From: Bacillota bacterium
GTDB taxonomy: Bacteria > Bacillota > UBA994
DNA: 38,715 bases
Direction: 5' to 3'
Assembly (NCBI GenBank): GCA_009773495.1
Contig: WSXW01000016.1
Span: forward strand, 1 to 38,715
Part shown: piece by piece, positions 30,603 through 34,784 of the stretch
Numbering within the stretch: the stretch's first letter is position 1
How the letters are laid out: every line of letters starts with the position of its first letter
Program-made: the position numbers and the translations under genes
The notes under the pieces: generated by a model
Databases searched by the model: none
What the model was told of the DNA's origin: nothing
The model's input: the letters and a program-made list of their open reading frames with translations, nothing else

Positions 30603-30620
30603 TAAGGCTGCCTTAATATT
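30590..30620 (+). terminator. Terminator overlapping the loader stop codon
   Basis: AAGGCAGCCT (30590-30599), loop TAGTA and AGGCTGCCTT (30605-30614) form a perfect 10-bp stem, followed by AATATTTT. The stop TAG is in the loop. Confidence 0.8.
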
Positions 30621-30642
30621 TTAAATATACCTGTTAATTATT

Positions 30643-30671
30643 TTGACATGAGTCGTATAGTTAGTTATACT
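30643..30671 (+). promoter_or_regulatory. Strong promoter of the DUF2089 unit with overlapping inverted repeat
   Basis: TTGACA (30643-30648) is a perfect -35; TATACT (30666-30671) follows after 17 bases. An inverted repeat GTATA-GTTAGT-TATAC (30655-30670) overlaps spacer and -10, a natural operator position for a helix-turn-helix protein. The DUF2089 protein itself is the obvious candidate binder. Confidence 0.78.
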
Positions 30672-30732: not shown

Positions 30733-31116
30733 ATGCGTAAGCAGTCCCCAGGCCTATGTCCTATTTGCAGCGAGAAGCTACACGTCACAAAACTAACCTG
30801 CCATCGCTGCGAGACTACTTTAGAGGGCAATTTTGAGCCCTGTCGTTTTTGCGCGCTGACTACTGAACAGAAGGCCTTCTTAGAGGTTTTTGTTAAAAGC
30901 CGTGGTAACATTAAAGAAGTAGAGCGCGAGCTTGGTATCTCTTACCCAACCGTGCGCAGCCGCCTAGATAACGTGTTGGAGGCTATGGGGTACAGGGTGG
31001 ATGAGGCCGCTGGCCGCGAAGATTTAGCATCTAAACGGCGTGAGATTTTAGATGCGTTGGCGAAGGGCGAGATTACGTCAGATGACGCGGTTAAGTTGTT
31101 GCGGTCCTTGTCGTAA
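30733..31116 (+). CDS. DUF2089 zinc-ribbon/HTH protein with a LiaX/YvlB-N-like tail
   Basis: The 127-residue protein has an N-terminal zinc ribbon (CPICSEKLHVTKLTCHRC), a further CRFC pair, then a helix-turn-helix region (EVERELGISYPTVRSRLDNVLEAMG, described in two parts here) typical of DUF2089. The tail REILDALAKGEITSDDAVKLL resembles the short helical domain at the N-terminus of YvlB/LiaX proteins, and also the start of the gene at 31558 (QILKMVQEGKVTAEEAAKLL). It is likely a DNA-binding regulator of the envelope module. A good RBS (GGGAGG) lies before ATG 30733. The stop is followed after three bases by the next ATG. Confidence 0.85.
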   Translation: MRKQSPGLCPICSEKLHVTKLTCHRCETTLEGNFEPCRFCALTTEQKAFLEVFVKSRGNIKEVERELGISYPTVRSRLDNVLEAMGYRVDEAAGREDLASKRREILDALAKGEITSDDAVKLLRSLS

Positions 31117-31119
31117 CAA

Positions 31120-31413
31120 ATGTTTAAGCTACCCAATTTCTATTTGCTGTGCGTTGTGCAATTGTCGGAATGGAAATACAGACTAATTCTTCCAGTGCCC
31201 CTCTTTTTGGTAGACGAGTTGTTAGCAATAGTCCCAATGCTTACATGGATCGCCCGGCTGACTCCATCTAGTGCTGTGCTGGAGAAGGTGGATGCAGATA
31301 AAATTTGTCGCATGGTTTTTGTGGTGTGGCGCAAAATCCGCGTAGCGGGGTCATTTACGATGGTGGAGGTTAATGACAACGACGGGACTAAGGTCAAAAT
31401 ACAATTGCTTTAA
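31120..31413 (+). CDS. 97-residue orphan resembling the C-terminal half of the YvlB-like protein
   Basis: I do not recognise it as a named family. It has two hydrophobic stretches: one at residues 7-13, and a longer LILPVPLFLVDELLAIVPML region at about 22-41. It ends in VEVNDNDGTKVKIQLL. The layout, a LP.P.FLVD strand-helix, then an ID/VD helix and a terminal VEV-D-D-KV-I strand pair, parallels the last 75 residues of the protein at 31558 (VNVNLPMTIVEV... and IVEVDDGDSKVEIIIE). It lacks the N-terminal helical domain, which instead appears at the end of the preceding DUF2089 protein. No RBS is visible, so it is probably translated by coupling. A terminator follows at once. Confidence 0.6.
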   Translation: MFKLPNFYLLCVVQLSEWKYRLILPVPLFLVDELLAIVPMLTWIARLTPSSAVLEKVDADKICRMVFVVWRKIRVAGSFTMVEVNDNDGTKVKIQLL

Positions 31414-31441
31414 GTTAAGCCTGCAATAGCTTAACTTTTTT
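31413..31441 (+). terminator. Terminator after the DUF2089 unit
   Basis: AGTTAAGC (31413-31420), loop CTGCAATA and GCTTAACT (31429-31436) followed by a run of T. Confidence 0.83.
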
Positions 31442-31472
31442 AATTTAAACATGAAAAATATTAATTTATATC

Positions 31473-31501
31473 TTGACCACCCTGTAACGTGGGCATATAA
31501 T
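31473..31501 (+). promoter_or_regulatory. Promoter of the YvlB-PspC-YvlD-like unit
   Basis: TTGACC (31473-31478), 17-base spacer and consensus TATAAT (31496-31501). A CCAC-N8-GTGG inverted repeat lies in the spacer and could be an operator. Confidence 0.82.
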
Positions 31502-31557
31502 GGTCTCAAGCAAGGGGTTAAACAGCACCCTTAATAATAAGAAAGGGGAAATTAATA

Positions 31558-31917
31558 ATGGAGTCAGAACGGATGCAAATTCTCAAAATGGTGCAGGAAG
31601 GTAAGGTCACTGCGGAGGAAGCGGCGAAACTTCTACAGGCAGTTGACGCCAAGCCCGCAAATACTACCAGCACTAGTAGTATTGGGGCACGGTGGTTGCG
31701 TGTTCGAGTGCAGGAGGCAGGGCGCCAGGTAGTCAATGTAAATTTACCGATGACAATAGTCGAAGTTGCTTTGAGCATGGGAGTCAAATTTATACCGCAG
31801 GAGCATCTAAAGGACATCGACCTCAACGCCCTGCTTGACGCTGTAAAGCAGGGTCTCACAGGCAAGATCGTTGAGGTAGATGACGGCGACAGTAAGGTCG
31901 AAATCATTATAGAATAG
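31558..31917 (+). CDS. YvlB/LiaX N-terminal-like (SHOCT-like) protein
   Basis: The 119-residue protein begins with the short helical repeat ERMQILKMVQEGKVTAEEAA, the YvlB/LiaX N-terminal type. A Ser/Thr-rich linker follows, then a C-terminal domain RVRVQEAGRQVVNVNLPM...GKIVEVDDGDSKVEI of the kind that follows it in many Bacillota proteins. LiaX in enterococci senses antimicrobial peptides and restrains the LiaFSR response; B. subtilis YvlB belongs to yvlABCD. This copy lacks the long DUF4097 beta-helix part of those proteins. AAAGGGGA is the RBS. PspC and YvlD homologs follow, giving a yvlBCD-like order. Confidence 0.82.
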   Translation: MESERMQILKMVQEGKVTAEEAAKLLQAVDAKPANTTSTSSIGARWLRVRVQEAGRQVVNVNLPMTIVEVALSMGVKFIPQEHLKDIDLNALLDAVKQGLTGKIVEVDDGDSKVEIIIE

Positions 31918-31955: not shown

Positions 31956-32141
31956 ATGGAAAAACGTCTCTATAGATCAAAAAAACAGCGGATGCTAGGC
32001 GGTGTGGCGGGTGGCATAGCAGAATACCTTAATACGGATCCTACCGTGATCCGTCTACTAATTGTGGCGTTTGCCTTCATGGGTGGCGCAGGTATCCCAG
32101 CCTACATTATTGCTTGGTTAATCATGCCGGAGGAAGCATAA
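31956..32141 (+). CDS. PspC-domain small membrane protein (YvlC-like)
   Basis: The 61-residue protein is essentially one PspC domain. A basic start (KRLYRSKKQRMLGGVAGGIA) leads to the conserved AEYLNTDPTVIRLLIV segment and a C-terminal membrane helix ending IIAWLIMPEEA. PspC proteins act in phage-shock or Lia-type envelope-stress control at the membrane. AGGGGGAGG precedes ATG 31956. The YvlD-like gene follows after three bases. Confidence 0.92.
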   Translation: MEKRLYRSKKQRMLGGVAGGIAEYLNTDPTVIRLLIVAFAFMGGAGIPAYIIAWLIMPEEA

Positions 32142-32144
32142 GCT

Positions 32145-32501
32145 ATGCGACGCAGTTTTGCATGGCGAGTAGTGCTCAACGCTGTAGGACTTTACGTAGT
32201 AGCTGAATATTTAGTGGAGGGGATCACTGTACAGGGAGTCCCTGCATTGCTGATAGCCGCACTAGTATTGGGCATTGTAAATTCCATATTGCGGCCGATT
32301 ATTGTAGTTCTTTCGCTCCCCATCAACATCCTGACGTTGGGGCTGTTAACTTTTGTGATTAACGGGCTGATGCTGCGCCTAACAGCGAGTCTAGTCCCCG
32401 GTTTTTCGGTAGACTCCTTCTGGACCGCAGTGTGGGGGGCTATCCTACTCAGCGTCATTAGTTACATCCTAAATTCCCTAATCAAAGACCTCGACTACTA
32501 G
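32145..32501 (+). CDS. YvlD-like 'phage holin family' membrane protein
   Basis: The 118-residue protein has four hydrophobic segments and the family motifs ALVLGIVNSILRPIIVVLSLP and NILTLGLLTFVINGLML. This is the Phage_holin_4_2/YvlD group; despite the name, members are chromosomal envelope proteins found next to PspC genes. Function is unknown. It closes the yvlBCD-like unit and a strong terminator follows 77 bases later. Confidence 0.9.
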   Translation: MRRSFAWRVVLNAVGLYVVAEYLVEGITVQGVPALLIAALVLGIVNSILRPIIVVLSLPINILTLGLLTFVINGLMLRLTASLVPGFSVDSFWTAVWGAILLSVISYILNSLIKDLDY

Positions 32502-32652: not shown

Positions 32653-32723
32653 AATTTCATGTAAATCACACATGTATGATTAGATTGCAGAGACTAAGTT
32701 GCACCTGAGGGGAGGTGGTTGCA

Positions 32724-32987
32724 TTGTCTAGATTAGGGAAAAACACTTTTGTTGGTTCAGCCAGTGTGGGCGAACGGGGGCAGATTGTCATTCCAGCCGA
32801 AGCCCGTAAAAGTCTCGGTATCGAATTCGGTGACAAGGTCCTAGTCTTCGGCCATGGCAAGGGGTTGTTGTTGCTAAAGGCGGAGACAGTGACCGAGTTG
32901 CTTTCAGAGACCCTGAGTCAAGCTAGTTCGTTGGAACGACTTTTGAAGACGGTCCAAGAGCAAGAGGTAGATGAGAGCAAGTCATAA
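32724..32987 (+). CDS. AbrB/SpoVT-type transcriptional regulator
   Basis: The protein of about 87 residues contains a swapped-hairpin AbrB domain: GSASVGERGQIVIPAEARKS followed by LGIEFGDKVLVFG and a short helical tail. The RGQIVIP core is diagnostic. It most likely dimerises and represses its own operon; a MazE-type antitoxin is less likely as no toxin gene is adjacent. TTG 32724 is preferred because the G-rich RBS GGGGAGG (32709-32715) is about eight bases upstream; GTG 32715 overlaps that RBS. The ABC exporter starts 12 bases after its stop. Confidence 0.85.
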   Translation: MSRLGKNTFVGSASVGERGQIVIPAEARKSLGIEFGDKVLVFGHGKGLLLLKAETVTELLSETLSQASSLERLLKTVQEQEVDESKS

Positions 32988-32999
32988 GGAGGAAGCAGA

Positions 33000-34784
33000 A
33001 TGCGTGCAGTGCTTAGATTACTGGGGCTAGTCAAGAAATATCTGAACCGCGTGGTATTAGCCATAGCCATGATGATTTTTGGCACTCTCTTGGTGGCTGT
33101 GCAACCCAAGCTAATTCAGTATGCGGTAGATCAGGTTTACGAAGGCGGAAGATGGCACCTCCTAGTATGGGTAGCACTAGGCATCTTTCTGGCGACCGTA
33201 TTGCGCTCTATTTTAAACTATTTAGAACGCATCCTTATGGAATGGGTGGCGCAGCGCGTAATTTATGATTTAAGGAATTCTATATATCATCACTTGCAGT
33301 CTCTATCGTTCAGCTTTTACGACAAGTCTCAGACAGGTCAGCTTATGTCACGCGCGACCGCAGATGTGGAGACCTTGCGGCGATTTATGAGCTTTGGTAT
33401 CCTGCGTCTCGTGAGCACCGTGCTCACAATGCTAGTAGTACTGGTGCTGCTGCTGCAAATGCACTGGCGTCTGACCGTTGTAGCCATGTCCACGATGCCT
33501 CTCTTGATATTAGTGGTATGGCAGTTTGCAGTTAAGGTTCGTCCGCGCTATCGTGGCATACAACAGCAGATGGCACAGATAACCACTGTACTGCAGGAGG
33601 CCATCTCTGGAGTGCGAGTAGTTCGTGCCTTTGCCCAGGAAGAGCGGGAGATAGAGCGTTTTCGGCAGCAAAACTGGAAATACCTTGAGCTCAACATCAC
33701 TACTTTGCGGCTGTGGGCCTTCTATTTCCCGCTCATGGCCTTTCTCGGCGGGCTAGGCAGCACTGTGGTGTTATGGTATGGCGGCCAGCTGGTCATTAAT
33801 GGGCAATTAACCATGGGGCAGATGCTGGCCTTTCAGACTTTGCTCATGCAGTTGCTTCAGCCCATACGCATGATCGGCTGGCTAGTCAATATGGCTACGC
33901 AAGCCTCCGCCGCCGGACAGAGAGTATTTGAAATTCTAGATACGAAGTCGGATGTTACCGAGCAGCCTGAGGCTAGGGAACTAACCAATGTTACCGGCCG
34001 TGTTCGTTTTGAGAAGGTGTCCTTTAGTTACGATGGTGGGAACCTGGTACTGGATAACCTCAACATAGATGCACAGCCTGGAGAGACAATCGCACTCTTG
34101 GGCGCTACTGGTTCCGGCAAAAGCTCCATCATTAACCTCATCCCTCGTTTTTACGATGTGACACATGGGAGAGTTACTATCGACGGAACAGATGTGCGCG
34201 ATGTAACGCTACAGAGCCTGCGTGCCAATATCGGTATCGTTTTACAGGAGACATTCCTGTTCTCTGCCACTATTCGCGACAATATTGCCTATGGTAAACC
34301 CGGTGCAACAGACCCAGAAGTCATAACTGCTGCCAAAGCCGCTCGTATCCACGACTTTATTATGACCCTGCCGGAAGGGTACCAGGCTCTAGTAGGCGAG
34401 AGAGGCGTAGGCCTGTCCGGCGGGCAAAAACAACGAGTGGCTATTGCACGTGCGCTTCTCATGGACCCTAAGGTGCTAATTTTGGATGAAGCCACGTCTA
34501 GCGTAGACACAGAGACTGAATATTTTATCCAACAGGCTTTTAACGAATTGATGAAGAACCGCACTACCTTTGTCATTGCCCAGCGTCTCTCCACAGTTAA
34601 GAATGCACAGCAGATCATAGTGCTAGACAATGGGAATATCGGTGAGCAAGGTACACATCAAGAGTTACTGCACGCCGGTGGTGTCTATAGAGAAATTTAC
34701 GAGATGCAGTTTAAACAGCAAGAAGAGGCCTTACAGCATATGCGAGAGCCAGAGAATTTTACGGTCGAAAGGAGCGTGAACTAG
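33000..34784 (+). CDS. Heterodimeric ABC exporter, subunit 1 (BmrC/YheI-like)
   Basis: The 594-residue protein joins a six-helix exporter membrane domain (about 1-310) to a nucleotide-binding domain. Walker A GATGSGKS is at residues 368-375, signature LSGGQ at 472-476, and Walker B LILDE with E497. The switch histidine is replaced by glutamine (VIAQRLST, Q528). It pairs with the next gene, which starts at the base after its stop. B. subtilis BmrCD and similar exporters move drugs or lipids outward; the substrate here is unknown. AGGAGG sets ATG 33000. Confidence 0.93.
   Translation: MRAVLRLLGLVKKYLNRVVLAIAMMIFGTLLVAVQPKLIQYAVDQVYEGGRWHLLVWVALGIFLATVLRSILNYLERILMEWVAQRVIYDLRNSIYHHLQSLSFSFYDKSQTGQLMSRATADVETLRRFMSFGILRLVSTVLTMLVVLVLLLQMHWRLTVVAMSTMPLLILVVWQFAVKVRPRYRGIQQQMAQITTVLQEAISGVRVVRAFAQEEREIERFRQQNWKYLELNITTLRLWAFYFPLMAFLGGLGSTVVLWYGGQLVINGQLTMGQMLAFQTLLMQLLQPIRMIGWLVNMATQASAAGQRVFEILDTKSDVTEQPEARELTNVTGRVRFEKVSFSYDGGNLVLDNLNIDAQPGETIALLGATGSGKSSIINLIPRFYDVTHGRVTIDGTDVRDVTLQSLRANIGIVLQETFLFSATIRDNIAYGKPGATDPEVITAAKAARIHDFIMTLPEGYQALVGERGVGLSGGQKQRVAIARALLMDPKVLILDEATSSVDTETEYFIQQAFNELMKNRTTFVIAQRLSTVKNAQQIIVLDNGNIGEQGTHQELLHAGGVYREIYEMQFKQQEEALQHMREPENFTVERSVN

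Follow-up and report, generated by a model that had tools for sequence, protein, structure and literature searches.

A DUF2089 regulator and a previously undescribed domain pair in a putative envelope-response module of Bacillota

Introduction

Why does a predicted DNA-binding regulator share one part of a small protein encoded nearby, and the orphan gene between them the other part? The question arises in a Bacillota genome, in a stretch of 38,715 nucleotides (contig WSXW01000016.1; hereafter the window). Three open reading frames called in the initial annotation, here D, O and Y, were confirmed at the coordinates in Table 1. That annotation read D and O as the halves of a split, rearranged copy of Y, taken to be a YvlB/LiaX-like protein, and suggested that the halves might dock with each other or with the intact protein and link envelope state to DNA binding. 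The shared parts are real, but we find a different origin and predict a different set of partners.

Table 1. Coordinates of genes, domains and candidate control sites around D, O and Y (positions in the window).
Feature	Position	Strand	Basis
D: DUF2089 regulator, zinc ribbon, HTH and SHOCT-like tail	30733..31116	+	Pfam matches
D, SHOCT-like tail	31033..31110	+	Pfam and profile comparison
O: 97-aa stand-alone paralogue of the Y C-domain	31120..31413	+	profiles, tree, AlphaFold model
Y: SHOCT-like domain and new C-domain, 119 aa	31558..31917	+	Pfam, AlphaFold model
Y, SHOCT-like domain	31567..31656	+	Pfam match
Y, C-domain, homologous to O	31687..31914	+	profile comparison, AlphaFold model
PspC-domain protein, YvlC/LiaY type	31956..32141	+	Pfam, E 1.8e-27
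Phage_holin_4_2 membrane protein, YvlD/LiaZ type (YvlD)	32145..32501	+	Pfam, E 1.7e-33
Promoter-like site of D-O, TTGACA-17-TATACT	30643..30671	+	consensus match only
Terminator-like hairpin immediately 3' of O	31412..31437	+	consensus match only
Promoter-like site of Y-PspC-YvlD, TTGACC-17-TATAAT	31473..31501	+	consensus match only
Operator-like site 5' of D, TTAATATTTTAAATATACCTGTTAATTATTTTGA	30613..30646	+	15/16 positions of TTAA-N5-TTAA-N8-TTRA-N5-TTRA
Operator-like site 5' of Y, TTAACTTTTTTAATTTAAACATGAAAAATATTAA	31431..31464	+	15/16 positions

Results and Discussion

Gene content and relation to known systems

D has the features of the DUF2089 family, a zinc ribbon (PF22747, 49.2 bits, cut-off 27.6) and an HTH domain (PF09862, 88 bits, cut-off 33.4). 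Based on the hairpin behind O and the promoter-like sites before D and Y, D-O and Y-PspC-YvlD appear to be separate units that share their control. An AbrB/MazE-type protein (window 32715-32987) is encoded in the interval that separates YvlD from an ABC transporter gene (33000-34784).

The PspC and Phage_holin_4_2 genes lie directly downstream of Y, as is typical of yvlBCD of Bacillus subtilis and liaXYZ of Enterococcus faecalis, which have the same layout of a SHOCT-like protein, a PspC protein and a holin-like membrane protein (PMC11601895, PMC9239133). LiaX and YvlB end in a Toastrack/DUF4097 domain, whereas Y ends in a new C-domain, and the place of LiaFSR is taken by an adjacent DUF2089 regulator that has operator-like sites of its own (PMC11601895, PMC9239133). 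Pfam finds no Toastrack/DUF4097 domain in Y, and the DUF4097-with-SHOCT genes of this genome are on another contig (C20), so Y is not its LiaX/YvlB. The label YvlB/LiaX-like thus suits the start of Y, which is SHOCT-like (45.4 bits), but the domain that defines those proteins is missing and is carried by other genes.

Another likeness is the four-gene DUF2089-Toastrack context, in which a DUF2089 zinc ribbon, HTH and SHOCT-like tail likewise occur beside SHOCT-Toastrack genes; variants are found near PspC, with a proposed role in turning a membrane signal into transcription (PMC11237479). The window operon differs in having no Toastrack gene, and the passages of that paper retrieved by term search make no mention of a Y C-domain, an O family, HTH_3 proteins joined to the C-domain, or an operator.

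The helical half is a SHOCT-like domain

The part shared by Y and D is an already-named domain, since PF22746 (SHOCT-like_DUF2089-C) matches both residues 4-33 of Y (E 5e-12) and, more weakly, residues 101-126 of D (E 2e-4; the 21.3 bits fall short of the curated cut-off, 27). Pairwise BLASTP between D and Y is too weak to decide, but comparison of family profiles matches D tails to Y N-termini with 97% probability, which bears out the helical similarity noted initially. A SHOCT-like end of DUF2089 and a SHOCT-like start of a Bacillus Toastrack protein are already described in passages of PMC11237479. Half of Y on D is therefore no peculiarity of this locus: going by the same passages the SHOCT tail is published DUF2089 architecture, and it is present with or without O.

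The tail on D tracks the gene content downstream. We compared 127 D genes that have enough flanking sequence: 98 combine a SHOCT tail with a downstream neighbor that bears SHOCT, 12 have the tail only, one the neighbor only and 16 neither (Fisher p 6e-12), an association of subfamilies and not 127 independent events, since the SHOCT-less D proteins fall into few subfamilies. These counts are from a joint model; a model from Y alone missed many D tails. The lone gene with a neighbor and no tail (L271) has an unreadable codon, and at least one tail-only case (L159) is a neighbor missed by the threshold.

Other DUF2089 architectures were also seen. Seven loci (L173, L178, L284, L285, L286, L288 and L290) encode DUF2089 proteins with another conserved helical tail, ALIKRLAINEKIDFDTAKILI, instead of the usual one, and have no SHOCT neighbors; this tail is possibly a diverged SHOCT-like domain. 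An NMT1-like domain (periplasmic binding protein type) is fused to the DUF2089 HTH in L166:682-1842. In L167, L168, L169 and L172 a long C-terminal part of about 160-265 residues replaces SHOCT, and the two that were scanned (L167 and L172) have no Pfam coverage there. What look like long fusions of DUF2089 in GC-rich genomes (L162-L165) are over-long open frames and were discarded.

O and the Y C-domain belong to an undescribed family

PF22746 covers the helical half of Y and the tail of D, whereas O and the Y C-domain are not covered by any model. Pairwise BLASTP of O against Y gives E 0.06 across 14 residues, too weak to decide, so the two short strings on which the initial annotation based the similarity are weak alone. 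From related loci we gathered 27 O and 57 Y sequences. The O profile aligns colinearly with the Y C-domain profile, nearly end to end (71 columns; probability 67%, P 5e-5, score 29.4), rising to 79% and a score of 31.9 when intermediates are added. A diluted O profile scores 22.4 against the Y C-domain, above the best of 150 column-permuted decoys (15.0) and above the reversed control (17.1). When 50 untrimmed O open reading frames make up the profile, it reaches 14% probability, a low value that is probably due to dilution by wrong starts and frame-shadow ORFs.

Two intermediate sequences match both single-family profiles, L156:1678-1950 (Y C-domain 4.8e-9, O 4.9e-3) and L139:1709-1984 (Y C-domain 1.1e-4, O 1.5e-5). 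In a search with the O profile, 28 Y proteins rank below the O-type sequences at E<1, with zero reversed decoys. AlphaFold models of O (mean pLDDT 89, good) and Y (mean pLDDT 82, fair) have the same order of strands and helices: E8-14, E21-27, H28-46, H49-56, H59-75, E79-85 and E91-96 in O, and E46-53, E56-64, H65-75, H89-97, E102-108 and E112-118 in the Y C-domain. Profiles, intermediates and modeled order together establish homology between O and the C-terminal half of Y, and the proposed common strand part is upheld.

The family appears to be previously unnamed and undescribed. No Pfam or NCBIfam model matches O, and across family members no Pfam model covers O or the Y C-domain. A PDB fold search with O and Y returned nothing at E<=0.001 (best 0.42 and 0.24), a PDB sequence search gave partial matches only, mostly to designed proteins, and a PHROGs search with D, O and Y found nothing below E 0.03 for any of them.

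O is an old paralogue that accompanies Y

In a tree of 86 C-domains, O and five intermediates are separated from Y, Y2 (a second Y-like protein, see below) and two intermediates with branch support of 96/85; the tree has 80 columns only, with inner forks uncertain and some long branches meeting. The rows nearest to the O of the window are O proteins of other genomes, not the local Y. We conclude that O belongs to an old paralogue family, and a gene split through local rearrangement is ruled out by the tree, so the idea of a split copy of Y is abandoned.

The gene order is D-O-Y in the class of the window and D-Y-O elsewhere, where a SHOCT-Toastrack gene is often located between D and Y. Other families (L142-L151) have tandem Y-Y2 genes, in which Y is immediately followed by Y2, again a SHOCT and C-domain protein, in the position that O has elsewhere. 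One genome with the full operon has a second, partial O-Y pair (L140:1265-1890, G004:C27), perhaps a decaying duplicate.

Across 399 genomes of the phylum, DUF2089 is found in 158, O in 48 and full-length Y in at least 108, the last a hand count from the match table, among the matches listed. All 48 O genomes also carry D (P 3e-22) and, among the matches listed, full-length Y (P 4e-32), and D genomes have O in 48/104 with Y among the matches listed vs 0/54 without (p 1e-11); these values overstate independence because related genomes share ancestry. By coordinate comparison O adjoins Y, in either order, in 47 of the 48 genomes; the exception is G335, where O is on another contig and unlinked to Y. 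The expected co-occurrence of DUF2089 with O is thus borne out, and a functional tie among D, O and Y is supported by the constant company of O.

The C-domain is also fused to another DNA-binding domain

Fourteen loci from two families (L182-L188, L190, L192, L202-L205 and L217) encode proteins without SHOCT in which the Y C-domain comes after a DNA-binding domain of the HTH_3 (Cro/CI) type; the HTH_3 identity is from Pfam in L174 and L176 and from similarity to those two in the others, and the L217 protein was matched from residue 66 only. The next gene encodes an O-type protein of 79-92 residues in 11 of the 14 loci, eight of them at E<=1e-3, while those of L183, L186 and L187 are weaker by profile and have the same motifs. 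A CWACC-N3-GGTWG palindrome precedes the HTH gene in eight of the 14, vs six matches in 955 kb of other loci. The fusions show the C-domain joined to another kind of DNA-binding domain, and O still in its company where SHOCT and D are absent.

This bears on the supposed docking of D with O as halves of one protein. The two genes are 3 bp apart in the class of the window and their products have domains in common with Y, which speaks for such docking. Outside that class, however, O is found behind Y rather than D, many genomes whose D has a SHOCT tail have no O, and O pairs with C-domain proteins that have neither SHOCT nor D. With the local origin also rejected, we consider this reading highly improbable.

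A candidate operator of DUF2089 proteins

The D upstream regions of many lineages contain a site of the form TTAA-N5-TTAA-N8-TTRA-N5-TTRA. We scanned 240 bp upstream of D, allowing gaps of 7 to 9. Within 167 non-redundant regions, all 16 positions are matched in 44 and at least 15 in 75, compared with 0.0 and 0.5 in dinucleotide shuffles. The spacing is specific, with 71 regions reaching 15 positions at N5/N8 and at most seven at any other combination tried. DUF2089 genes of about 28 families are preceded by such a site, and several of the matches outside D upstream regions are Y promoters.

In the window, at least 14 positions are reached only upstream of D and Y. The final TTGA of the site before D is part of the -35 box; the -35 box TTGA (31473) of the Y promoter-like site keeps the same period as the operator-like site preceding it, and in the class of the window the Y promoter has a dyad roughly 8 bp upstream of its -35 box. 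The genome has four distinct places with at most one mismatch, before D (30613), before Y (31431), C45:8662 and C59:20002. The latter two look like chance, the one on C59 being a hairpin-like palindrome, and were not retained as genuine operator sites.

Scans at the fixed spacing gave no site for those SHOCT-less D regions that were measured, nor for the HTH_3-C-domain loci. On contig C20 of this genome, the SHOCT-Toastrack genes have none at two or fewer mismatches.

A conserved factor other than D could bind these sites, with D acting elsewhere. The motif is AT-rich and palindromic like those of many factors, and about half of the D genes, many in GC-rich genomes, lack a clear site. Yet the site is specific to DUF2089 upstream regions, where it is about 190 times denser than in the rest of the same loci, three loci with Y and without D have no site of 15 or more positions, and two of the only four places in this genome are at this locus. 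We therefore regard binding by another factor as quite unlikely.

A proposed self-regulated module

Our preferred reading, with a probability of roughly 0.6, is that D, O, Y, PspC and YvlD are one self-regulated envelope-response module, in which we infer the binding of D and the contacts between SHOCT-like and C-domains. D would bind the operator-like site as a multimer, the two dyads being 21 bp apart and reaching to the -35 box or stopping shortly ahead of it, and would control both its own unit (D-O) and Y-PspC-YvlD. D and Y may meet near the membrane through their SHOCT-like domains, and O may pair with the C-domain of Y, setting whether Y holds or frees D. An envelope disturbance would then change the complex and, with it, the transcription of the genes for two membrane proteins, PspC and YvlD. 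The envelope role is suggested by analogy, because of the PspC and holin-like neighbors and the work on LiaXYZ (PMC11601895) and YvlB (PMC9239133).

The genomic evidence points to two pairings, the SHOCT of D with the SHOCT of Y/LiaX, and O with the C-domain. The genes could instead be co-regulated without contact between their products. D would then simply autoregulate an envelope operon, while the SHOCT-like and C-domains would each self-associate, for example as homo-oligomers. Operator and operon evidence alone would suffice for such a linkage, and the C-domain paralogues Y, Y2 and O could each homodimerise. This scheme does not predict that SHOCT tails on D track SHOCT-bearing neighbors, or that O tracks C-domain proteins in two unrelated contexts, and we think it unlikely, if less so than binding by another factor.

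Beyond the module itself, we tentatively propose, at somewhat less than even odds, a kinase-free chain in which an operator-bound DUF2089 receiver contacts Y/LiaX through SHOCT-SHOCT pairing and is gated by a beta-beta-alpha-alpha-beta-beta pair, the Y C-domain and O. In other Bacillota the same pair on a Cro/CI-type HTH would make up an independent one-component variant, controlled from a CAACC-N3-GGTTG operator of its own.

Significance

The candidate operator, the HTH_3-C-domain fusion and the coupling between SHOCT tail and neighbor are new results. For the widespread DUF2089 regulators we found no reported DNA target. With a conserved site of fixed spacing in about 28 families, their regulon can be predicted and put to the test, and this obscure family gains a predicted target and predicted partners. 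The 97-aa orphan O, outside Pfam and NCBIfam models, is now placed in a family. The occurrence of the C-domain pair with DNA-binding proteins in two unrelated arrangements suggests that bacteria may have a form of envelope-to-DNA signaling that is free of histidine kinases.
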